The translations under genes were made by a program, and so were the position numbers. A DNA stretch of 64,000 bases from Oryzisolibacter propanilivorax (GTDB lineage: Bacteria; Pseudomonadota; Gammaproteobacteria; Burkholderiales; Burkholderiaceae_C): the NCBI RefSeq assembly GCF_900103645.1, contig NZ_FNHP01000001.1, positions 558,001-622,000 on the forward strand. Direction: 5' to 3'. Positions within the stretch are counted from its first letter, which is position 1. Every line of letters begins with the position of its first letter. The notes beneath the pieces are model-generated. The model did not search any database. It was not told the DNA's origin and saw only the letters and a program-made list of their open reading frames with translations. Of the stretch, positions 22,496 to 33,253 are shown piece after piece.

Positions 22496-23155
22496 GTGCC
22501 TAGCTTTGCGCCTATTGCCGCCCATGACATCACCGCCTTGGTCCTAGCCGGCGGGCGCGGCAGCCGCATGGGAGGCGTGGACAAGGGACTGCAGCTGTTT
22601 CGCGGCGTGCCGCTAGCGTTGCATGCCGCGCGGCGCGTGCGGCCCCAGGTGGCCAGCGTCATGCTGAGCGCCAATCGCCATCTCCCTGAATACGCCGCTT
22701 GGGGCATGCCCGTGTGGCCCGACACCGACGGCAGTTTCGCTGGACCGCTGGCCGGCATCGCCGCCGGGCTGGCGCACTGCTCGACCCCGTGGATGCTCAC
22801 TGTGCCGTGCGATACGCCGTTGTTTCCTCAGGACCTGGCCGCACGCCTTGCGCAGGCCGCGCAGCAGGCCAGGGCTCCCGTCGCCATGGCTGCGGCGCCA
22901 CAGCCCGAACGCGATGGGCCGCTCCGGCTGCGCACCCACGCCGTGTTCTGCCTGGTGTCGGTAGCGCTGCATGAAGATCTGGAGGTTTTCCTGCGCGCGG
23001 GCGGGCGCCGTGTGCAGCAGTGGAGCGGGCAGCATGGCTGCGCCATCGCGGCGTTCGACCGCCCGGGAGACGATCCCCAGGCCTTTGCCAATGCCAACAC
23101 GCTGGAGCAGCTGCAAGAGCTGCACCGGCAGGATGGAGCTGCCAGGGCCCCCTGA
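22496..23155 (+). CDS. mobA: Molybdenum cofactor guanylyltransferase MobA
   Basis: Attaches GMP to molybdopterin to make the bis-MGD cofactor used by nitrate reductases and related enzymes. The 219 residues begin with a GTG codon (no in-frame ATG fits) and show the nucleotidyltransferase motif LAGGRGSRMGGVDKGL near residues 18-33, then a GPLAGIAAGL segment and a TVPCDTPLFP motif for metal and nucleotide. It is coupled to moaA by an 8-base gap, consistent with one cofactor operon. Confidence 0.92.
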   Translation: MPSFAPIAAHDITALVLAGGRGSRMGGVDKGLQLFRGVPLALHAARRVRPQVASVMLSANRHLPEYAAWGMPVWPDTDGSFAGPLAGIAAGLAHCSTPWMLTVPCDTPLFPQDLAARLAQAAQQARAPVAMAAAPQPERDGPLRLRTHAVFCLVSVALHEDLEVFLRAGGRRVQQWSGQHGCAIAAFDRPGDDPQAFANANTLEQLQELHRQDGAARAP

Positions 23156-23226
23156 GTCTGGGCAGCTGGCCCGATCGCTCTAGTGCCGGATTGGCGCGGG
23201 CGGTCGGACGGTCCCGCTCTGCCGCT

Positions 23227-25719
23227 TCAGCTACCGCTGTAGGCAGGATTGATCTTGACCTTGAAGTTCATCGCGCCGACGGCCTTGGCCTTGACCAGCC
23301 AGTACGCTCCTCCATTCGCCACTGCGGCGCCTGACACGTTGGTGGGCTTGAGGTAGCGGTCCTTCGGCAATATCCACACCATTTCATCCAGGCTGGTCGG
23401 GTGTGCGGCCGTGATACGGCTGGTCTGCGCGTCCAGGCGAGCCTCACTCCAGACAACCTGGTTGCGCTTGTCCATGAAGTCCGCCAGGCGTTCGATCGAA
23501 TACCATTTGAATTTCGCCTTCCCCTTGCTGTTGGCATAGGCAATCAGCCCCTTCATGACGTCCATCCAGTCGGCCGCCCCCGGCGGATGGGCATAGACCA
23601 TCCGCGCGGTGTTCTGTGCGATGTCGAAGTCGATCAGCGCCTGGTACCAACCCAGCACGTCTGTTTTCGGAACGTTGAAGTCCTGGAACTCCTCGAACGT
23701 CGCGTAGTTGCCAAAGGGCGTCACGGGAGAAACCCATAGACGGGGGTTCAGCAGGGCCCCGTCGCGGTACTGGCGCGTGACGCCCAGACCCGTGTGCCCA
23801 CCGAAATACGCGCCGACAACGCCCTGGCTCTCCAGCCACGTCATGGCCCACGTGGGATTGTTGCCTTGGGGCGCGGAGTAGTCGCGGCTGGGGCGGCCGA
23901 TGGCATTGGCCACCGCACGGCGGTTCTCCACCAGGTACGGCAGGAACTGCGTTTCGTTGGTTTCGTTGGCGTTGTTGCCGTAATAGTCGTGGATCCAGCC
24001 CCCGTGAGAACCCACCGAATGCCCGAGCGCGACCATGCGCTGCAGGAACGCCCGTGCGGTGGGGTTATGGTCCAGGTCAAATCCGGCGCCGTCGCCGATG
24101 GTGATCGTGTCAGGGCCAGCTGTCATGTGCATCGAAGTGCCGGCGTTCTTGAAGATGCCCGCTTTTTCCAGCGCCAGCATCGGCGCCTGCGCGGCCTTGG
24201 AGTCGAGGTGCCAGTTGAAGGTGATGCCAGGAACAGCCTTGGGCATGGCCGACAGGCGGATGCCGTCCAGCACGTTCTTCACGAAGTAGCCCAGGAACCC
24301 GTGCATCGGCAGCGCGTCTGTGCGGCCCTTCAGGTAGGTCAGTGGCAGGTTGACGAACATCACCTGGCCTGCGCCGTAGTGGTTGACGCCTGCCACCAGA
24401 CCGAAGTCAGGCGACGTCGCCAGCGTGGTGCCAAGGTAGTCACCTTCCGTCTGGTAAGTAGGATAGATCAGATAGCCCAGCAGGTAACCACTGTATGCAT
24501 GGCGCTCGTCGGGGCCTGTGTCGGTGGCCGCCTTGGGCCACAGCGCATCCTGAGCGTCGGCGCCCTTGTCTATCTCGTCATCCGCGGCTACCAGCGGGCG
24601 GCTCGTGGACGAGGTCAGCGCAACCCGCGTGGAACGCGTCGGAGCTGCCCCCTTGAACGCCCTGCCGTAGCGGATCTTGACCGTGCGCGCGGGCTTTGCA
24701 CTGGCGCCTGCGCGTTCGCGTTGTGAGTAGGACGGCAGCATCTGGAACTGCTGGGGATCGAATCCCCGCGCGCCCCCCGGGTCGGACACGCTGGGCGCCA
24801 GGTACAGCGACTCGTGCTCGGCGACGCCCGCCGCGTCGAGAAGCGGTATGCCTCGATCGCTGGCCGCCGCACGCGCCTTGCCCTGGAGGGAGGGCGTCGC
24901 TTCCGAAACTCCAGCCGACGAGCGTGCTGCCTGGGCATCGGGTGGGTAGGCTGCCGACTTGCCCGGCGGCACTAGCAACTCGCGCAGCGTGCTGCGCATG
25001 GCCGTCACCGGCCCCAGGCCCGTGGTCTTGTCCAGGTACTTGTCGTAGAGGATGTAGTCGACCCCTGCCAAGTCGCTCAGGCGCGACTTCGGAATTGGGA
25101 ACACCGGCACGCCGTCGCCATTTAACGTCAGGGCGGCGAAGTCGAACGTCAGGAACGTCTTGCCCCCCGCCTGGGTGTAGGCCCGCACGGCAGCCACAAG
25201 TTCGTCGGTGCCGATGGCGTGGATCGAGTCGGGCAGCACCAAGCCGGCATAGCCCAGGGCGCCCGCGGTGCCCATGGACAGGAACTGCGAGTCCGTGACG
25301 ACCGCGGTGCGCGCTCCGACTTCCGAGGTGGCATCCAGCCAGGCGGTTACACCCGGATCGGATGGCGAGAGAGCATCCGGGATGAGCAGCATGAGCTGCC
25401 CGGGATCGGCAGCCACCGCGGGTACGGCGGCAGGCGCAGCGGGCGGCGCATCCAACGACGCCGCAGCCAGTCGGCGCGTGGCGACCGGCACTCTTTCGCC
25501 AGGCGGCGGCGAGGAGGGAACTTCTACTGCCGCTCCTACCAGGGGTGCCACGGGTGAGGTGCCAACAGAGGCATGGGCTGAAACCGGGGCGGCTTCGTCC
25601 TCGCCTCCGCCCCCGCCGCATGCCGCAAGAGCCGTGACCATCGCCCACAGCACGGCCGGCGCCGCGGCCCGTCGCCAGAGCCCGGCGGCAGCGTGGGTAG
25701 TTCTCGCTTGGGCTGTCAT
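23227..25719 (-). CDS. Polysaccharide deacetylase-like lipoprotein
   Basis: An 830-residue exported lipoprotein: signal peptide with lipobox LAAC (Cys34) followed by GGGGG, then a low-complexity linker. Residues about 105-200 resemble a class I glutamine-amidotransferase-like fold (LMLLIPDALSPSDPGV, AGLVLPDS). Residues about 495-720 look like a NodB-type or PelA/Agd3-type deacetylase with candidate metal ligands Asp506 (WHLDS), His572 and His577 (SHGGWIH) and His711 (YAHPP). It is the last gene of the exopolysaccharide cluster and may trim N-acetyl groups from the exported polymer. The family match is by eye only, and residues in motif 1 are not the canonical TFDD. Confidence 0.7.
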   Translation of the reverse strand: MTAQARTTHAAAGLWRRAAAPAVLWAMVTALAACGGGGGEDEAAPVSAHASVGTSPVAPLVGAAVEVPSSPPPGERVPVATRRLAAASLDAPPAAPAAVPAVAADPGQLMLLIPDALSPSDPGVTAWLDATSEVGARTAVVTDSQFLSMGTAGALGYAGLVLPDSIHAIGTDELVAAVRAYTQAGGKTFLTFDFAALTLNGDGVPVFPIPKSRLSDLAGVDYILYDKYLDKTTGLGPVTAMRSTLRELLVPPGKSAAYPPDAQAARSSAGVSEATPSLQGKARAAASDRGIPLLDAAGVAEHESLYLAPSVSDPGGARGFDPQQFQMLPSYSQRERAGASAKPARTVKIRYGRAFKGAAPTRSTRVALTSSTSRPLVAADDEIDKGADAQDALWPKAATDTGPDERHAYSGYLLGYLIYPTYQTEGDYLGTTLATSPDFGLVAGVNHYGAGQVMFVNLPLTYLKGRTDALPMHGFLGYFVKNVLDGIRLSAMPKAVPGITFNWHLDSKAAQAPMLALEKAGIFKNAGTSMHMTAGPDTITIGDGAGFDLDHNPTARAFLQRMVALGHSVGSHGGWIHDYYGNNANETNETQFLPYLVENRRAVANAIGRPSRDYSAPQGNNPTWAMTWLESQGVVGAYFGGHTGLGVTRQYRDGALLNPRLWVSPVTPFGNYATFEEFQDFNVPKTDVLGWYQALIDFDIAQNTARMVYAHPPGAADWMDVMKGLIAYANSKGKAKFKWYSIERLADFMDKRNQVVWSEARLDAQTSRITAAHPTSLDEMVWILPKDRYLKPTNVSGAAVANGGAYWLVKAKAVGAMNFKVKINPAYSGS

Positions 25720-25778
25720 GGTGAATTCCCTTGGTGGTGGGTGAACGGGCGCGACCTTGCTGGTTCAGCGCAGGCCGG

Positions 25779-26597
25779 TCAGGCTTTGGCGACAGTACGC
25801 GCCGCCGCTCGCGCGGCTCGCGCGACACTACGGCGCTCGGAGACGGACGCTTTGCTGACAAAGTAGGAATAGATGCCGAGCTGCGCGAGCACGGGAGGCA
25901 GAAAGGTCGCGAGCAGGTAGATGGGCAGCAGCACCAAGGTGTTCGTCTCATGCACGATCCACACCAGGGTGCCGACGTGGAACGGTGCGCTGACTACTAC
26001 AAAAGCTACGGCAACCAAGGTGGCCAGAAGCTTTTGCAGCATTCCGAGCGGAAATATGTACAGCAACGCCGCGTGCAGCACTGGCATGATCCAGAGCAAG
26101 ATGCCGTTGATCTGCATCAGGCTGTTGAAGTAATCCGACACCTGGACCTGGAACAGGGTTGGAAACCAGAGAAAAGCCAGGGAGCTCCCCATGCCCAAGA
26201 ACGTCGTGACACGCCAGAAATAGATGAAAGGCAGATGGCGTCTAGGTACTAGCAGGGAGACAACGAACAAAAGCGCCAGCACCACCAGCGTCACCCACGC
26301 CTGCACCACCGTTGGGGCATTGGCCGTCACCTGCATGGTTACGGCATCCCACCGGCGACCGAGAAAATAGAAGGGCTCGAGCGTGATTGCCGACCCGGGT
26401 CCGATGCCCAAGCGCGGCCATGCCCATGCCAAGAGGTCATGCCACAGCGCCTGCACGTGGCGAAACCCCAATGCGAGACACAGCCAGCACACGAGCAGCA
26501 GCGCCAGCACTTCAAGGGTCTGCCCGGTGCTCCAGGAGTAAGAACGCAAACCGCGCTGCTGGCGGGTCGTTTCGATGCGGCGTGGGCGTATCGTCAT
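25779..26597 (-). CDS. Polytopic membrane protein of the polysaccharide cluster
   Basis: A 272-residue protein I do not recognise. It has about seven hydrophobic segments: near residues 24-48, 85-110, 120-145, 160-180, 182-205, 208-225 and 228-250. The N-terminus and C-terminus are both strongly basic. The start lies 5 bases past the stop of the YaiO-type gene, so it is translationally linked to it. A role as partner of the synthase, or in export or c-di-GMP input, is possible, but no domain supports a specific job. Confidence 0.75.
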   Translation of the reverse strand: MTIRPRRIETTRQQRGLRSYSWSTGQTLEVLALLLVCWLCLALGFRHVQALWHDLLAWAWPRLGIGPGSAITLEPFYFLGRRWDAVTMQVTANAPTVVQAWVTLVVLALLFVVSLLVPRRHLPFIYFWRVTTFLGMGSSLAFLWFPTLFQVQVSDYFNSLMQINGILLWIMPVLHAALLYIFPLGMLQKLLATLVAVAFVVVSAPFHVGTLVWIVHETNTLVLLPIYLLATFLPPVLAQLGIYSYFVSKASVSERRSVARAARAAARTVAKA

Positions 26598-26602
26598 GGT
26601 CG

Positions 26603-27487
26603 TCAGAAGTCCATAAAAATGCCGATTTGCAAGCCTGCGCGGTGGTAATAGGGATTGCGGTAGAGCTGCGTTCCCAGGACATAGCCCCAGCGCCGGGTGA
26701 CCCATTGGCGCCACTGCAGCGTGGCCTCGGTGGAGCGAAAGCGCACATCCGCCGGCAAGTCCAGGCCTGCGGCCACCGGCAGGTAGCCCTCTTGGCCGTG
26801 CTCGAGGCGCAGCGCCACGGTGCGCTGGCCCACCTGTCCCACGGTGCCCGCGATGAACGCGCGCGTGCTCGTGACGGAGCCGGGACTGGAGCGGTTGACC
26901 GACACGCCAGCCTCCCCCGTCCAGCCGGCAGGCGCGTAATACAGCAACGTGGCGCGCAGGGCGTTGTCGTGGTGGATGTGGTCGCCGCTGGCGGCATGCA
27001 TGAACGCAAGGCCTGTCACCCAACGGCGCTCCTCGCCCCATTTGCGGAACGCACCCGCATCCAGTCGGTAGCGGTTTTGAAAGCTTGCGGTGGCGCCCGA
27101 GATACCCACCAGGCCGTACCAGTCTGGCGAGAAGTCATAGACCACCGACAGAGCGCCGACGGTGCCGGTCTCGCCGAAATGCCGCTGGCTGGCCACGCTC
27201 CAGTGCAGCACGGTGCCCGAAGCCGGACTGAAGTGCCCGAGCGCGTAGCCCTCGGTCCAGTGCTGCAGCCCGTCGCTCAGATGCGCTCCCGCCACGCCCA
27301 CCTCGACACTGCCGGTGGTCGGCTTTGGAGAGACCACGTCTTCCATTGTGGAGGCCAAAGGCATGGAGACGGCGTCGCCGCCTGCGGCCTGTGCGAGCGC
27401 GCCCTCCGCCAGGCAGCAGCCGGCCGCAATAATCAAGGCAGCGCGCTGTAAGGGCGGCGCGAGTGCCGGGATCGAACCAAAGCTCAT
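26603..27487 (-). CDS. YaiO family outer-membrane beta-barrel protein
   Basis: A 294-residue outer-membrane protein. The signal peptide ends near GALAQA. The rest alternates short amphipathic strands (VEVGVAGAHLSDG, TVLHWSVASQRHFGETG, GLVGISGATASF) and ends with Phe (QIGIFMDF), the usual barrel insertion signal. It matches the YaiO-type barrel (TIGR04390) seen beside GT2 synthases in E. coli. AGGAGA is 9 bases before the ATG at 27487. In this cluster it is the likely polymer exit pore or a barrel that assists export. Family assignment from pattern is fairly firm; pore function is inferred. Confidence 0.75.
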   Translation of the reverse strand: MSFGSIPALAPPLQRAALIIAAGCCLAEGALAQAAGGDAVSMPLASTMEDVVSPKPTTGSVEVGVAGAHLSDGLQHWTEGYALGHFSPASGTVLHWSVASQRHFGETGTVGALSVVYDFSPDWYGLVGISGATASFQNRYRLDAGAFRKWGEERRWVTGLAFMHAASGDHIHHDNALRATLLYYAPAGWTGEAGVSVNRSSPGSVTSTRAFIAGTVGQVGQRTVALRLEHGQEGYLPVAAGLDLPADVRFRSTEATLQWRQWVTRRWGYVLGTQLYRNPYYHRAGLQIGIFMDF

Positions 27488-27512
27488 CACGTTGCGTCTC
27501 CTGTCGGCAGGT

Positions 27513-28508
27513 TCATATGACACCCGGGAGTGGGGTGAGCGAAGCGCCCAACTGACGCGTGCAGGCAACGCCGATGGATCGATGCGCCAACGCCGCATCG
27601 GCCATGGCGTCCAGGACTGTCCAGCCCACGTTGCCAGACGACGAACGGACCGACAGCCGCCAGCAGGCAGCTTCGGCGGGTGCCAGGCCGTGGATGTTCC
27701 AAGCCACGATGCCCCATGCGTAGTGGTCGTTCTGGCGGTTCAGCCACGTGGCGCTGTATTGGGCTAGCCAGCCAGCCATGTCAGCCGCTGCCTGCGCTTT
27801 GGGCAACATGCCGCTGCCCCAGAGATACGTCGGCGCCAGCGCATGCGGATAAAAGCTCTCGCGCTCTAGCGCAGGCAGCGCGGGCAGCCACTGGCCGTTG
27901 TGGCGAAAGCGCTGTCCGATGGCAGTGGCCAGGTTCGCCGCAGCCGTGGTCTGACGGGAGATTTTCAGCGCCTCGTATACCTCGATGTTGTCCATAAGGT
28001 AGTACGCGGACTGGCCCGGAAACACCTGGTACAGGCCGTTGCCCGGGTCGCGCAAAGACACAAGCAGTGCAGCCGCGCGGCGCTCCGCGGTGCTGGTGTC
28101 GACGCGTTCGAGCATACCTATCCACCCGCGCGCCCTTGCCAGGCGGATGAGGTGGATGGTGGTGGCCGCAGTCGAGTCGTCGGCGTCCGCCGCCATGCAG
28201 GCCACCCATGTCGAGTCCTCACGTGTGCAAAAGCGGTCGAAGCCGCCGTCCTTGCGCTGGCGCGGCAGCAGCCAGGCCAGCCACGCTTTCAGCTCGACCC
28301 GCACGTCAAGGCCCGAGTCCATCGCGATGATCAGCGCCTTGTTGGCGAAGTATGGGTCCGCTACTGTGCCCCCCACCAGAACGGTGAAACTCCCGTCGGC
28401 GCCCTGGAAGGCCCGCCAGGGCGCGGGCTCGGGTACAGATGCAGACATCGCAGGGCCGCACGCCAAAAACAGACTGGCGACCAGCGCGGGCAGCGCGAGC
28501 GGCTTCAC
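27513..28508 (-). CDS. Secreted alpha/alpha-toroid protein, possible glycosidase
   Basis: A 331-residue exported protein. The GTG start at 28508 follows GGAGGAGG and overlaps the upstream stop by 4 bases. The signal peptide ends near AMSASVPE. The mature part is alpha-helical with RKDGGFDRFCT, then DADDSTAATTIHLIRLA, and later NDHYAWGIVAWNIHGL, a pattern typical of (alpha/alpha)6 toroid folds such as GH families that act on uronate or hexosamine polymers. Conserved acidic residues around DADDS are candidate catalytic groups. A periplasmic role in trimming or releasing the polymer is plausible, but I cannot place it in a named family. Confidence 0.7.
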   Translation of the reverse strand: MKPLALPALVASLFLACGPAMSASVPEPAPWRAFQGADGSFTVLVGGTVADPYFANKALIIAMDSGLDVRVELKAWLAWLLPRQRKDGGFDRFCTREDSTWVACMAADADDSTAATTIHLIRLARARGWIGMLERVDTSTAERRAAALLVSLRDPGNGLYQVFPGQSAYYLMDNIEVYEALKISRQTTAAANLATAIGQRFRHNGQWLPALPALERESFYPHALAPTYLWGSGMLPKAQAAADMAGWLAQYSATWLNRQNDHYAWGIVAWNIHGLAPAEAACWRLSVRSSSGNVGWTVLDAMADAALAHRSIGVACTRQLGASLTPLPGVI

Positions 28509-29455
28509 GAGGCCTCCTCCGACACATGGCAGCCGCCGACCGACGCGATCGCGCCGAACACAGCAACCGAGGGACCGAGCACGACATCCCAACCGGAGAC
28601 GCTGCAGGGTATCGAAGGCGAGCCCGCGTGAGTGCCGCGCCCCAGTTCGACGCGCCAGCCCGCTGAAATCGGCCCCTGAATGCGATTGAAACCCCGGCAG
28701 CGAATTTGACCCTCGGCAAACAAGGCGCCCTGCGCGGAGGCGCCCTCTGCCAGATCGATGTTCCCGTGCGCCTTGACGTGGCCGACAACGCGTGCGCCTT
28801 CGCCCAGCAGGAGATTACCGCCCACCACCAGGTCGGCAAAGCGCACCTCGCCGGCTTCGATCAGCAAATCCCCGGCGTGCCGTTCAGGCATCAGCGCCAA
28901 GGGCGTGGGAGCACCTTCGGCCTCGACGTCTTCCGGAGGCACCAGCAGTGGTGCCGTGACGATGCATGGAGCCGCCATCCGAAACGCCTGGGAGCCTGCA
29001 GCCAGCACCACCAGCGATTCGGCGCTGGTGCGGCCGTTGAGCACGACCGGACCATGGCTCACGATGGACTCGGCGTGCACCAGGTGGCGTACCTGCGCCC
29101 CCCGCTCCATTTCCAGTCTCATTCCCGAGATCAAAATGTCAGCGGTAGCGTCTTGCTCCATGCGTACGGCCCGGGAAGTGCGCACCGACGGAATGTGGAC
29201 TGCTATGGGCACCACGTAGGCTTCTCCCTTGAGCCAGGAACCCGCCTGCTCCACGGACGCGAGATCAGGCAGTTGCGGTGCCAGCACCTGAAGGCGGTAG
29301 GCCGTCTCGCCGCTGTCTGCATCGTCGATGGGAATGGGCCCGATGTCCCGCCGCTGCCTGAGTTCGGTGAAAGCAGGCAGCAGGGGCAGCAGGAACAGGG
29401 CTATCGCGACCGAGGTCCAGACCAGGCCCCAGCCGATGGGGTTCATTTCGGTCAT
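28505..29455 (-). CDS. Membrane-anchored bactofilin-like (polymer-forming) protein
   Basis: A 316-residue protein with one N-terminal transmembrane helix (residues 5-29) and a repetitive beta-helix-like body. The stretch from about 190 to 290 has the short Gly/Val/Ile repeats of bactofilins: VVGGNLLLGEGARVVGHVKAHGN, then GASAQGALFAEGQIRCRG. Bactofilins polymerise without nucleotide and act as scaffolds for envelope enzymes. Start and stop each overlap the neighbours by 4 bases (ATGA and GTGA), so it is made together with the synthase upstream. A scaffold for the synthase complex is the natural reading, as inference. Confidence 0.72.
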   Translation of the reverse strand: MTEMNPIGWGLVWTSVAIALFLLPLLPAFTELRQRRDIGPIPIDDADSGETAYRLQVLAPQLPDLASVEQAGSWLKGEAYVVPIAVHIPSVRTSRAVRMEQDATADILISGMRLEMERGAQVRHLVHAESIVSHGPVVLNGRTSAESLVVLAAGSQAFRMAAPCIVTAPLLVPPEDVEAEGAPTPLALMPERHAGDLLIEAGEVRFADLVVGGNLLLGEGARVVGHVKAHGNIDLAEGASAQGALFAEGQIRCRGFNRIQGPISAGWRVELGRGTHAGSPSIPCSVSGWDVVLGPSVAVFGAIASVGGCHVSEEAS

Positions 29456-31035
29456 GGTGCGGCCTCCCCGCGTCCGGAGTCAGGATGGCGAAAGCGTGCA
29501 GTTTTGTCCCATTGGAGCTTGCGGCGCAGCAAACGATCAAGAAACAGCCCGTCAACGCTGGCCTTGGTAATTGCCATCATGCTGACGAGAAAACCGCAGA
29601 ACATTAGAGGCAACAGCCGTATGCGCTCGCGGTACCCGTCTAGGTGCGAGGCGACTGCGACCTGCACGAAAGCGGCGAAGTTTCCCGCCAGCGCCAAGGT
29701 GGTGACGAAGATCAGGAACCACAACTCCCACGATTGCAGGCCCTGCGCGAAATCGACTCCGGTAAGGGCCAGCACCGCTGAAAGCAGCCAGCCCAGCAGC
29801 AGCAGAGGCGACATGAAGAACACCCCGAGCAAAGCGAGACCATCAAGCCGCTGCAGCCGTGACAGGTCGCCGCTGCGCAGCACGCGCCCGAAATACGTCA
29901 TCATGGCCGCGTTGTGGCCCTTGGCCCAGCGGCTGATCTGGCGAAAGCGCACTTCCCAGGATTGCGGCACCTCCTCATAGCACTCCGCATGGTTAAGGTA
30001 GGCGGTGTGCCAGCCTTTGAGCAGTAATCGGTAGGTCAGGTCGGTATCCTCGGCCAGGGTGTCGATTGTCCAGCCGCCGGCGTCGGCCAGAGCGCTGAGA
30101 CGCACGCCGCCCACGGTGCCCCCGTACTGCGGCACCGACCCCAGGCAATAGCGCGCCTGCTGGTCGACCTGATAGCCGGCCGAACGCTCCAGATCGAGAA
30201 TGCGTGTGAGCAGATTGACGCCCACATTCTGCGGCACCACCCGGCCCATGACGGCCCCCACCTCAGGGTCGAAAAACGGCGCTGCCAATTGCTTGATCAA
30301 CTGCCGATTGGGCAGATAGTCGGCATCAAAGACGATGATCAGGTCCGCCACGTCCTGCGCCTGCACGTATTCGGTTGCGGCTTTGAGGGCGCGCACGCGT
30401 GCGATTTCCGCCTCTTCCGCCTGCAGCAGCTCCTGGTGGGCCTCGCGCTCGTCCTCGGAGTCGCGCAGCTGCCTGAACCCGTTACCCGTCACGATGTCGG
30501 TCGCGTCCTTGAGCGCGGCCGCCTTCCCTGGTGCACCTGCGGACCGATGATAAGGATGCAGCCGGCCCGGGTATCGCGCGGCATAGTGTTCAATGACCGC
30601 CCGCGTGCCGTCGGTCGACCGGTCGTTCACGGGCATCAACACCAGCCGGTCGCTCGGGTAGTCGCAATGCAAAAGCGCATCAATGCAGTCACCAATCACG
30701 GCTTCCTCGTTGTGCGCAGCGATCAAAACCACCACGCGGGGCCAGTTCGCAGTTTCGATAGAAGCATGCAGCGGCACCTGTGGCCGGAACATGCGGGTCA
30801 AGGCGAACCAGTAATGCCGCAGCGAATACAGCAGCAATAGACCCACCACGAAGGCCAGCAGTGCCCTGCACACCATCACGAATGCATTGCCCGATGCTCC
30901 CAGTGCGCTGCCGGCCGGCTGCGCGCAGGCCAACACCGGTGCCAGCATCACCGCCAGGGCCAGCACCGCCCGCGTCCTGGCAAGGCTGCGCTCCTCAAGG
31001 TACAGTGGCCGCGTAGTTTTTCCGGTCGCTCTCAT
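29452..31035 (-). CDS. Membrane glycosyltransferase family 2 (processive synthase)
   Basis: A 527-residue polysaccharide synthase resembling PgaC/hyaluronan-synthase-type GT2 enzymes. It has N-terminal membrane spans (about 22-40, 55-75), a GT-A domain with AAHNEE (107), VNDRSTDG (137), DxD (Asp237, Asp239), the acceptor-site ED (329-330) and QxxRW (Gln366, Arg369, Trp370), then four C-terminal spans. Unusual is a charged, Glu-rich helical insert at about 184-230 between KAAALKDA and the DxD motif. No PilZ domain is visible. The start overlaps the epimerase stop (ATGA). The donor is probably UDP-ManNAc or UDP-GlcNAc given that neighbour. Confidence 0.85.
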   Translation of the reverse strand: MRATGKTTRPLYLEERSLARTRAVLALAVMLAPVLACAQPAGSALGASGNAFVMVCRALLAFVVGLLLLYSLRHYWFALTRMFRPQVPLHASIETANWPRVVVLIAAHNEEAVIGDCIDALLHCDYPSDRLVLMPVNDRSTDGTRAVIEHYAARYPGRLHPYHRSAGAPGKAAALKDATDIVTGNGFRQLRDSEDEREAHQELLQAEEAEIARVRALKAATEYVQAQDVADLIIVFDADYLPNRQLIKQLAAPFFDPEVGAVMGRVVPQNVGVNLLTRILDLERSAGYQVDQQARYCLGSVPQYGGTVGGVRLSALADAGGWTIDTLAEDTDLTYRLLLKGWHTAYLNHAECYEEVPQSWEVRFRQISRWAKGHNAAMMTYFGRVLRSGDLSRLQRLDGLALLGVFFMSPLLLLGWLLSAVLALTGVDFAQGLQSWELWFLIFVTTLALAGNFAAFVQVAVASHLDGYRERIRLLPLMFCGFLVSMMAITKASVDGLFLDRLLRRKLQWDKTARFRHPDSGRGEAAP

Positions 31036-32213
31036 GCCAGCTCCTCTGCACAAATGGAGCCCCCAGACAGGCAACTTGCTTCTTGTCTTGAGGGGCGCAG
31101 CGCGGACTCAAGGTGCGCCGCTATCCGCTGCGACGCCTTGCCATCCCCAAACGGGTTGACGCTTGCCTGCATGCCGCGATAGGCCTGCGCGTCGGCATGC
31201 AGGTGCAAAACCTGGTCCATGATGGCCTGGCGGTGTGCGCCCACCAGCATCGCGCAGCCTGCCTCGAGCACCTCGGGCCGCTCGGTTTCTTCACGCAGCA
31301 CCAGCACCGGCACGCCGAAAGTGGGAGCCTCTTCCTGCAGGCCGCCCGAATCGGTCAGCACCAGCCACGCGTCGGCCAAAGCCTGCTGCATGGCCAAGTA
31401 GTCGAGGGGCTGGGTGAGCCGGACGTTGGGCAGCCCGCCGAGATGCCGATGCACCGGCCCGTGCACCACTGGGTTGAGATGCACCGGAAACAGCACTGGC
31501 AGATCAGGCAGCCGAGCCGCGATGTCGGCGATGGCCGCGCACACGTGGTCGATATCGTCACCCCAGTTTTCACGCCGGTGCATGGTGACCAGCATGTGGC
31601 CGCGCCCGGTTGCACGGCGTTGGATGTCCCGGCGCTTGCAAATCCATTCCTGCGCATCCACTACCGTATTGCCGGTTGTCCAGATGCTATGCGGTGCCAC
31701 GTTTTCCGCCAGCAGCGCCTGCCGCGACCGGGACGTGGGCGAAAAGTGGAACTTCGCGATTCGTCCGATCATCTGGCGCAGACCCTCCTCCGGGAAAGGC
31801 CGAAGCAGATTGTGGGTGCGCAACCCTGCTTCTATGTGGGCTACCGGAATCTGCCTGTAGAACGCGGCGAGTGCTCCCTGGAAGGCACTCTCGGTGTCGC
31901 CTTGTACGATTACACACGCCCAGGGAGAGCGGTCCAGCAGCGCATCCAGCTGGACACGGCAGCCCATGCCGAACTCGAGCAACGAGTCGCCTGCGCGGAC
32001 CAGGGAGATATCTGGGTCGATGTCGAAACACGTCAGGATCTGGTCGGCCATCTGGCTGTGCTGGCCGGTGTGCAGCCACGCGACGCGCGCCCAGCCGCAG
32101 CGCGATAGCTGATGGTAGAGCGGCGCCAGCTTGATGATCTCAGGGCGCGTTCCAGAGACCATCAGAATTGGTACAGGCAAGTGAACAGCGTCAGGCCACG
32201 AAGGCAAAAGCAT
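31032..32213 (-). CDS. wecB: Non-hydrolysing UDP-N-acetylglucosamine 2-epimerase
   Basis: Interconverts UDP-GlcNAc and UDP-ManNAc in the cytosol. The 393 residues contain GTRPEIIKLAPL (21-32), GDT (Asp106), HIEAG (Glu128), PEE (142-143) and MHRREN (His212), equivalent to the catalytic Asp95, Glu117, Glu131 and His213 of the E. coli enzyme, and TDSGGLQEEAP near the end. After PEE the family's Asn-Arg pair is replaced (PEEGLRQMIG), so it is a divergent member. The ATG at 32213 has GGAG 7 bases upstream; a longer frame to 32396 is less family-like. First gene of the polysaccharide operon, so the polymer likely contains ManNAc or a derived sugar. Confidence 0.88.
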   Translation of the reverse strand: MLLPSWPDAVHLPVPILMVSGTRPEIIKLAPLYHQLSRCGWARVAWLHTGQHSQMADQILTCFDIDPDISLVRAGDSLLEFGMGCRVQLDALLDRSPWACVIVQGDTESAFQGALAAFYRQIPVAHIEAGLRTHNLLRPFPEEGLRQMIGRIAKFHFSPTSRSRQALLAENVAPHSIWTTGNTVVDAQEWICKRRDIQRRATGRGHMLVTMHRRENWGDDIDHVCAAIADIAARLPDLPVLFPVHLNPVVHGPVHRHLGGLPNVRLTQPLDYLAMQQALADAWLVLTDSGGLQEEAPTFGVPVLVLREETERPEVLEAGCAMLVGAHRQAIMDQVLHLHADAQAYRGMQASVNPFGDGKASQRIAAHLESALRPSRQEASCLSGGSICAEELA

Positions 32214-32435
32214 CACAACACTCCAAGTGAGCCCGTCAATATCTTTGCTGCCGCGTGCGAGCCAGAAGCTCTCGTCGCATGGAGCGTCGTGCGCGCCATG
32301 CACTAGCTGGTGGTTGGCTACTCCGCAGATGCGGTGGCATACCTCCACATCCATGTATCGCTGAAGCACCCTCGTGGTTCGCGAATAGCGTGCCAAATAC
32401 TATCTATAGTTAATATTTATTCTCAAACGAAATCC

Positions 32436-32464
32436 ATTGTCAAAATCGAATGACAAAGTGTCAA
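32436..32464 (-). promoter_or_regulatory. Candidate sigma-70 promoter of the polysaccharide operon
   Basis: On the minus strand a perfect TTGACA (32459-32464) is separated by 17 bases from GACAAT (32436-32441). It lies in an AT-rich patch 220 bases before wecB. The -35 box overlaps the small palindrome TGACA-CTT-TGTCA, a possible repressor site. Confidence 0.5.
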
Positions 32465-32923
32465 TAATCATTTCTGGAATATCTGATTAGCCAACTTTGC
32501 TCTTCTTCCGCTTCCTGCCATGGGCAGCGCCTACTTTTCGCCCGCTATACAAAATGTAACAAAGGCAAGAATAAGCAAGGGAGAGGTTCCTGCCCTTGTA
32601 TGTCTATTCAGCCGGGGAAGTCATAGAAAAGAAACAATCCTCCACGCGCTAGCTTGCGATGGCCACGTCCCTGGCCGGGTCCCCCTGCGGGCTGCGGATG
32701 GGGCGTGCACTCCGGATAGTGCGGCAGGGCACGACCGTGTTACAAGAAAGGCGTCGGCGTTGTGCCGTCATCTGGCCCCGGTTCGGCGGCATCAGCTGTC
32801 GCTAAGTAAGCGATACAGGAAAAAGGGGGGGCGGACATGGCACGTGAGAGAACATGCCCGCCGCAGCGCGGCGTCGTACACGACCTATGCTTGAGGCCTC
32901 GCACCAACCTTCCGGAGCATCCC
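32465..32923. other. Intergenic region without a convincing gene
   Basis: About 460 bases upstream of the thioredoxin-like gene. An open frame at 32520-32894 has no family-like content or ribosome site. The first about 100 bases are notably AT-rich compared with the rest of the window. Nothing else recognised. Confidence 0.5.
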
Positions 32924-33253
32924 ATGTCCTACACCGCCATTCACTCCGAAACGCCACCCACGCGTGAAGCCGTAGACCAGCTGCGCGGCGCTGCAGTACT
33001 TGAGTTTGGCGCGCCCTGGTGCGGATATTGCCGCGGTGCGCAGCAACTGATCGAGCAGGCGTTGCAAGACTTGCCACAGGTCGAGCACATCAAGGTCGAG
33101 GATGGCCCGGGCCGCCCCCTGGGACGCAGCTACCGCGTCAAGCTGTGGCCGACGCTGGTGTTCCTGAAGGACGGCCAGGAAGTGGCGCGCGTGGTGCGCC
33201 CGCAGACTGCGCAGGAGCTGGACGACGCGCTGGCCCAGGCCAACGCAGCCTGA
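32924..33253 (+). CDS. Thioredoxin family protein
   Basis: A 109-residue thioredoxin-fold protein with the active-site pair in APWCGYCRGAQ (about residues 30-40; CGYC rather than the classic CGPC) and a conserved cis-Pro segment KLWPTLVFLKDG. It has no signal peptide, so it is probably a cytosolic disulfide reductase. GGAG lies 7 bases before the ATG. The altered dipeptide should shift its redox potential. It stands alone and converges on rnhA. Confidence 0.88.
   Translation: MSYTAIHSETPPTREAVDQLRGAAVLEFGAPWCGYCRGAQQLIEQALQDLPQVEHIKVEDGPGRPLGRSYRVKLWPTLVFLKDGQEVARVVRPQTAQELDDALAQANAA

Follow-up and report, generated by a model that had tools for sequence, protein, structure and literature searches.

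Organization of the Gene Cluster

The window analyzed here is a 64,000-nucleotide stretch of the Oryzisolibacter propanilivorax genome (contig NZ_FNHP01000001.1, positions 558,001 to 622,000), and all coordinates given for this genome are positions within it. From 23227 to approximately 32213 the minus strand of the window carries seven genes, which we letter in the order of their transcription: a UDP-N-acetylglucosamine (UDP-GlcNAc) 2-epimerase (A), a family 2 glycosyltransferase (GT2) synthase (B), a bactofilin-like protein (C), a toroid protein (D), a YaiO-type barrel (E), a polytopic membrane protein (F) and a deacetylase-like lipoprotein (G). Overlaps of 4 bases join A to B (A stop at 31032, B ATG at 31035), B to C (29452/29455) and C to D (28505/28508, with a GTG start for D). 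Gaps of 25, 5 and 59 bases separate D from E (27513/27487), E from F (26603/26597) and F from G (25779/25719). These stop and start coordinates reproduce exactly the minus-strand gene order, overlaps and gaps given in a first-pass annotation of the window.

The same annotation placed the upstream border of the cluster at 32464. This position is not the start of the epimerase, the reading frame of which is closed upstream by a stop at 32402-32400 and for which the ATG at 32213 is preferred (393 amino acids; nine further in-frame starts are possible). It is instead the first base of a promoter-like site upstream of the operon, TTGACA-17-GACAAT on the minus strand (32436-32464), which was recognized by consensus scan only and agrees with the consensus in 10 of 12 positions. 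Between 32250 and 32930 the consensus scan gave three sites of this kind, of which two overlap, compared with an expectation of 0.3. The kilobase 32000-32999, which holds the region upstream of the operon with its promoter-like sites, has a G+C content of 0.57, the lowest of any kilobase between 16000 and 40000.

The Epimerase and the Synthase

Gene A (31032-32213, start uncertain) encodes a non-hydrolysing UDP-GlcNAc 2-epimerase (WecB), scoring 388.6 bits against the wecB equivalog TIGR00236 (cut-off 210). The A query used for the family scans and the locus profiles began at 32306, a non-start codon, and thus had extra N-terminal residues that left the matched domain unaffected. A was the only wecB found when the genome containing the window was searched with TIGR00236.

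Gene B (29452-31035) encodes a processive-type GT2 synthase that matches PF13641 with 95.9 bits (cut-off 27). The signatures of membrane-bound processive GT2 enzymes (DxD-type, ED and QxxRW) are present in B as DAD, EDTD and QxxRW, and these motifs were found in 83 of 83 synthase rows of the module, comprising the 80 loci described below, two further genomes and the window, with one place counted twice. Scores against the NCBIfam PgaC and CelA families were 109.5 and 53 bits, under the respective cut-offs of 422 and 699. In the window synthase, some 46 extra residues are inserted in frame into the catalytic domain, between the GKAAAL and FDADY motifs (30349-30486, with approximate borders derived from motif spacing and alignment). 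The spacing between these motifs is 66 in the window compared with 20-24 in 81 other rows, none of which has the insert.

A quick maximum-likelihood tree split 85 module synthases, including two from Escherichia, from the K-12 enzymes PgaC, YaiP and NfrB on a long branch with an SH-aLRT value of 98. The branches of the three K-12 enzymes are very long, and their relative order is not settled by the tree. The tree tool warned that the joining of Escherichia and Burkholderia synthases may be a long-branch artefact, and so no claim is built on that join.

The Outer Membrane Barrel and the Polytopic Membrane Protein

Gene E (26603-27487, with GTG 27490 as an alternative start) encodes a YaiO-type outer-membrane β-barrel, a predicted pore, which scores 138.5 bits against TIGR04390 (cut-off 32) and 55.4 bits, also over the cut-off, against PF19413. 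The combination of a processive GT2 with an outer-membrane barrel is shared with the class of synthase-dependent systems; the periplasmic tetratricopeptide repeat (TPR) scaffold of that class is not found here. No TPR family matched any of the seven proteins at E ≤ 1, although a TPR protein may be encoded elsewhere.

For the membrane protein F (25779-26597) no family was recognized: neither the window copy nor any of 45 family members had a Pfam or NCBIfam match, and no match was found in the PDB by sequence. Its structure model, with a predicted local distance difference test (pLDDT) score of 91.3, has six long helices and a β-hairpin. In fold searches nothing reached E ≤ 0.001 with Foldseek or Z ≥ 8 with VIA, which does not establish a new fold.

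Recurrence of the Gene Set

An alignment of three synthases was scanned against one genome per species, and the best 80 of at least 512 stretches were kept. The seven window proteins served as seeds for profiles, which were then run over these 80 loci, with genes counted as occurring together at more than 100 bits. B was found in all 80, C in 79, F in 76, E in 74, A in 73, D in 66 and G in 54. The core of A, B, C, E and F occurred together in 72 of the 80 loci, in 61 with D as well, and in 42 with all seven genes; contigs shorter than 10 kb account for 6 of the 8 loci lacking a full core. In every one of the 79 loci with both B and C, C adjoins or overlaps the end of B, and F lies within 200 bases after E in 72 of 74. 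The remaining order is shuffled between lineages (ABCDGEF, ABCDEF, ABCGEF, BCGAEFDG and others). The set recurs in distant bacteria, which goes beyond chance. Of the two results that the first-pass annotation named as refuting, profile hits to a known Pga, Pel or Bcs variant were not obtained, and loss of gene-order conservation outside this strain was obtained in part, with the set kept and its order changed.

The loci include members of Burkholderia, Ralstonia, Cupriavidus, Collimonas, Polaromonas, Chromobacterium and the Acidobacteria, the sheath-formers Sphaerotilus and Leptothrix, as well as Escherichia, where the module is on a conjugative plasmid. Two copies of G are present in the order BCGAEFDG, which occurs in the sheath-formers (L042, L047 and L063) and also in L029 (the same place as L024), L032 and L054. 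Excerpts of a paper on sheath genes contain no link to the gene set (PMC13386937), and neither do those of a paper with a bactofilin in a transcript list (PMC11819568). The synthases of a contig binned as Corynebacterium and of a Brachymonas bin (L035/L036) are identical, probably through a binning error.

Since B served to select the 80 loci, which in turn trained the profiles, records from outside this set weigh more. Those not used for profile building are the plasmid and Escherichia coli records described in the next section and five genomes fetched via the F profile (G036, G010, G075, G417 and G326), all of which have A to F. The F profile matched 6 of 100 genomes comprising the source genome and its relatives, and 4 in a 398-genome sample of the phylum, the source genome and one relative again included. 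Among the 100 genomes, G was present in 5 of the 6 F carriers, on another contig and hence unlinked in two of them; outside the F carriers the only G match was a weak one of 50 residues, in G004.

A search for a conserved extra gene produced a single-linkage BLAST cluster, containing a GGDEF-EAL protein, that touches 18 of 82 loci. A motif count placed GGDEF-type neighbors within 4 kb in 13 of the 82, and in L042 (7215-9656) the module has a gene for a GGDEF-EAL protein nearby. There is no background rate for GGDEF neighbors, and therefore we make no claim concerning cyclic di-GMP (c-di-GMP).

Plasmid Carriage and Insertion Site

B was matched at E ≤ 1e-80 in 2 of 72,556 plasmid records. One is the conjugative IncI1/B/O plasmid NZ_CP057682.1 of Escherichia fergusonii, on which the genes appear in the order C, A, E, F, acyltransferase, D, B, with no G in the 25 kb examined. 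The other is the Cupriavidus plasmid pMTS1, which has all seven genes. The E. coli chromosomes AH19B041 and NCTC8623 carry A to F, and a stretch with D and B was matched in 3 of 5,426 complete E. coli genomes. An acyltransferase (PF01757) is encoded in two enterobacterial copies, in stretches that lack G. Both Escherichia modules have as neighbors a gene for phosphoadenosine phosphosulfate reductase and one for a ParB- or IbrB-like protein (L106 13271-15108 and L108 6693-8542).

In the window genome the cluster is inserted between mobA and a thioredoxin-like gene, within a stretch (23123-32921) that has no counterpart in two congeners. In these genomes (G002 and G003) moaA, mobA, the thioredoxin gene and rnhA are contiguous, giving an empty site, and the congener alignments end at window position 23122 (23105 in G002) and restart at 32922. 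G004 has mobA and rnhA at a great distance from each other, and the fragmented G001 yielded neither gene. F is absent from all four congeners. The G+C content per kilobase is 0.63-0.68 at 23000-31999, compared with 0.66-0.73 (median 0.71) in the flanks examined. The sporadic carriage, the empty site and the G+C content together give the picture of an acquired cassette.

The Bactofilin-like Protein

Gene C (28505-29455) encodes a bactofilin-like β-helix protein with one N-terminal hydrophobic segment. The bactofilin family PF04519 matched 37 of 43 C family members at E ≤ 0.001, the window copy included, and was by far the commonest Pfam match. An anchor motif, LPxxPAxxE, was found in the E. coli copy too. 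The first-pass annotation proposed that the bactofilin is a scaffold in place of a TPR protein. For such a replacement no support was obtained: the TPR domains of known synthase-dependent systems are periplasmic, and the anchored C protein may well face the cytoplasm. Counts of charged residues after the anchor in 31 copies (2.0 for lysine and arginine, 2.2 for aspartate and glutamate) do not decide the orientation. A canonical bactofilin gene (PF04519, 66 bits) occurs about 0.9 kb downstream of F in Polaromonas (L066 16066-16686); it was set aside as a probably separate gene because another open reading frame lies between.

The Toroid Protein and the Deacetylase-like Lipoprotein

The product of gene D (27513-28508) has a signal-like N terminus and, in the window copy, no Pfam or NCBIfam match. 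Its AlphaFold model (pLDDT 90.7) is an (α/α)6 toroid. The best VIA match was the methylmannose polysaccharide hydrolase MmpH (7qsj_B) with a Z-score of 22.7 and a root mean square deviation of 3.2 over 267 aligned residues. This is a tie with dextran dextrinase (9ju0, Z 22.4), and GH76 mannanases and squalene-hopene cyclase scored lower, at Z ~19. The family PF22422 (MGH1-like_GH, mannosylglycerate-hydrolase-like) was matched by 4 of 40 D homologues. Five acidic residues (Asp-108, Asp-110, Asp-111, Asp-173 and Glu-176) are present in 40 of 40, and the DSSP string suggests that they stand at or just before the starts of helices. On the basis of the toroid fold matches, the family matches and the invariant acids, D is likely to be a hydrolase, probably a glycoside hydrolase. 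Nothing was found on MmpH in the open-licence literature. Searched against the PDB by sequence, D had no match in a first search and, in a second, none but weak ones to complement and terpene-cyclase proteins (E ≥ 0.02).

The product of gene G (23227-25719) has an N terminus that reads as lipobox-like in the sequence, and it contains a divergent deacetylase region of the NodB type. PF01522 was matched at E ≤ 0.001 by 20 of 42 G family members. His-504, His-577 and His-711 are found in all 42, His-572 in 41 and Asp-506 in 39; Asp-506, His-572 and His-577 may form a metal-binding Asp-His-His set. A relation to the fungal deacetylase Agd3 or to PelA was not supported when G profiles of 6 and 42 rows were compared with the PDB, the only matches being weak ones to NodB and β-galactosidase proteins and a spurious one to BIRC6.

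Relationship to Described Systems

The first-pass annotation regarded the cluster as a complete synthase-dependent exopolysaccharide system distinct from Pga, Pel, Bcs and alginate, and knew of no described system with this set. Pfam and NCBIfam scans of the seven proteins agree, giving an apparently complete system and speaking against membership in Pga, Bcs, Pel, alginate or Nfr; the module profiles, run against K-12 proteins, also argue against Pga and Nfr. Among the titles and abstracts listed in searches of the open-licence literature, none described the set.

The Nfr system of E. coli (nfrBA-ybcH with wecB), which makes the N4 glycan receptor (NGR), resembles the module, as far as excerpts of PMC8669472 and PMC8669469 describe it, in having a GT2 with processive signatures, dependence on WecB and an outer-membrane barrel. 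A polymer containing N-acetylmannosamine (ManNAc) is proposed there, its identity being left open. According to an excerpt of PMC8669469, the MshEN domain of NfrB binds c-di-GMP, and NfrA contains TPR repeats, whereas the seven module proteins have no MshEN or TPR match. NfrB scores only 15 bits with the module synthase profile, and the annotation of the nfr operon in K-12 lists no genes but nfrB, nfrA and ybcH.

The K-12 yaiO-yaiX-yaiP-yaiS group is, by its annotation, a smaller arrangement in which the genes for a GT2 (YaiP), a YaiO barrel, an acyltransferase and a predicted deacetylase lie close together. YaiP and YaiO nevertheless score only 57 and 6 bits with the module profiles, and the annotation of the 14 kb examined includes neither an epimerase nor a bactofilin. 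The annotated acyltransferase gene yaiX (L138 6845-8873), between yaiO and yaiP, is interrupted by IS2.

The Bcs system shares the GT2 core and has, in BcsZ, a protein near to D in its toroid fold, but no PilZ, BcsB or TPR family was matched by the seven proteins. For Gluconacetobacter, a cytoplasmic "cortical belt" has been proposed to align the cellulose synthases, the belt protein not being known at that time (excerpt of PMC7811197); here, a bactofilin-like gene adjoins the synthase gene. B differs from PelF in being a GT2, and the scans found in the seven proteins no Pel family and no Alg8, Alg44, AlgK or AlgE family, genome-wide searches for Pel and alginate genes not having been made.

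Discussion

We consider it probable that the cluster encodes a synthase-dependent exopolysaccharide system that is horizontally mobile and works as follows. WecB (A) would convert UDP-GlcNAc to UDP-ManNAc. The processive GT2 (B), with F as its likely partner, would polymerise the sugar and move the chain through the inner membrane, and the chain would exit via the TPR-less YaiO barrel (E). In the periplasm, the toroid protein (D), as a probable hydrolase, may shorten the chain, the lipoprotein (G) may N-deacetylate it, or both may act; in the Escherichia copies, which have no G in the stretch, an acyltransferase may edit the chain instead. The membrane-anchored bactofilin (C) may hold or cluster the synthase complexes.

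Several observations weigh against this reading. To our knowledge, no polymer, enzyme activity or mutant is known for the module, and no co-polymerase of a known kind was recognized in the cluster. Two of the window proteins fall under Pfam cut-offs: C scores 23.1 bits against PF04519 (cut-off 27.9; the E. coli copy, at 22.1 bits, is likewise under it) and G scores 20.9 bits against Polysacc_deac_1 (PF01522, cut-off 23.1). The toroid fold of the D model does not by itself fix the function of the protein, as terpene cyclases share the fold and also score. Foldseek placed squalene-hopene cyclase first (E 2.3e-5), followed by MmpH and GH8/BcsZ (9b87 and 3qxq for BcsZ, E 4e-4 to 5e-4), and 1 of 40 D homologues matched a terpene-cyclase family. 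Among the 72 core loci, 11 are without D, 20 without G and 1 without both. G is missing from the searched genome in 16 of the 20 G-less loci and lies elsewhere in the genome in 4, and the 11 D-less genomes yielded one weak D match and otherwise none; many of the genomes behind these absence counts are draft or metagenome assemblies. G036, a genome from outside the survey, has the core and no G. Since D and G are missing from part of the core loci and genomes, neither is essential, and we treat both as accessories. The epimerase was not found in 7 of the 80 loci. These loci were selected by synthase and include duplicates (L024 and L029 are one place; L035 and L036 have identical synthases), and the Fisher values for co-occurrence of F and G (8e-8, or 5e-7 counting the G004 match) ignore shared ancestry.

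The first-pass annotation also proposed a ManNAc-type polymer. The proposal is unproven and gains indirect support: the presence of the epimerase in 73 of the 80 loci and on the plasmid, together with its being the only wecB found in the window genome, suggests a dedicated supply of precursor, and we regard a ManNAc polymer as likely. The same secretion machine could instead make a polymer from UDP-GlcNAc or a mixture, the epimerase serving a primer, a minor residue or another pathway. PgaC, which uses UDP-GlcNAc, comes nearer to B (27% identity over 312 residues, 139 bits) than do YaiP and NfrB, the two other GT2 enzymes of K-12 in the comparison, and the choice of donor cannot be read from the sequence data here. 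The recurrence of the epimerase tells against such a polymer, which we consider a real though distinctly less probable alternative. The NfrB system, as described in excerpts of PMC8669472 and PMC8669469, is a precedent for the supply of a GT2 polymer system by WecB.

The remaining alternatives appear weaker. In systems such as Bcs and Pga, an outer-membrane barrel with exported hydrolase- or deacetylase-type proteins is typical of polymer secretion. The presence here of this usual set makes it unlikely that the genes build a cell-bound glycan, either a lipid-linked glycan or an envelope decoration, rather than a released exopolysaccharide, even though a matrix polymer is not known for the module and the WecB-, NfrB- and NfrA-dependent N4 receptor is described as a surface glycan (excerpt of PMC8669472). 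Slightly less probable still is the proposal that C is a left-handed β-helix acyltransferase that modifies the sugar, and not a scaffold. A few of the 43 C members do have weak matches to acyltransferase or nucleotidyltransferase/acetyltransferase families (NeuD, 3; mannose-1-phosphate guanylyltransferase, 3; archaeal GlmU, 3; LpxD-type, 2 and 1; Hexapep, 1), and His-127 is kept in 41 of 43. However, the bactofilin family is far ahead among the Pfam matches, and inspection by eye did not reveal the His-127 segment in the copies from E. coli and E. fergusonii. That the cluster is a divergent Pga (poly-GlcNAc) operon is very improbable: it shares with Pga a GT2 of the same broad family, PgaC-like in kind, a deacetylase-like protein and a barrel, but K-12 PgaA, PgaB and PgaD were unmatched by the module profiles (best 2.6 bits), PgaC lies outside the module synthases in the tree, and no NCBIfam Pga equivalog was reached.

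Within the secreted-polymer reading, we advance one further proposal tentatively, as a possibility that may well prove wrong. Anchored bactofilin filaments under the inner membrane might align the synthases, causing the chains of a partly deacetylated or acylated ManNAc polymer to exit side by side through the TPR-less barrel and to form an ordered fibre or sheath-like layer; the mobile operon would then carry a dedicated cytoskeleton.

If the proposed mechanism is correct, the module would be a widely spread and apparently undescribed route to a bacterial matrix polymer and, besides Nfr, a second candidate route from WecB to a ManNAc polymer. It provides leads to the functions of D and F, the window copies of which have no family name, and of the anchored bactofilin. 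Whether a cytoskeletal polymer can organize polysaccharide synthases, an idea raised for the Gluconacetobacter belt (excerpt of PMC7811197), could also be tested directly by genetics in this module.

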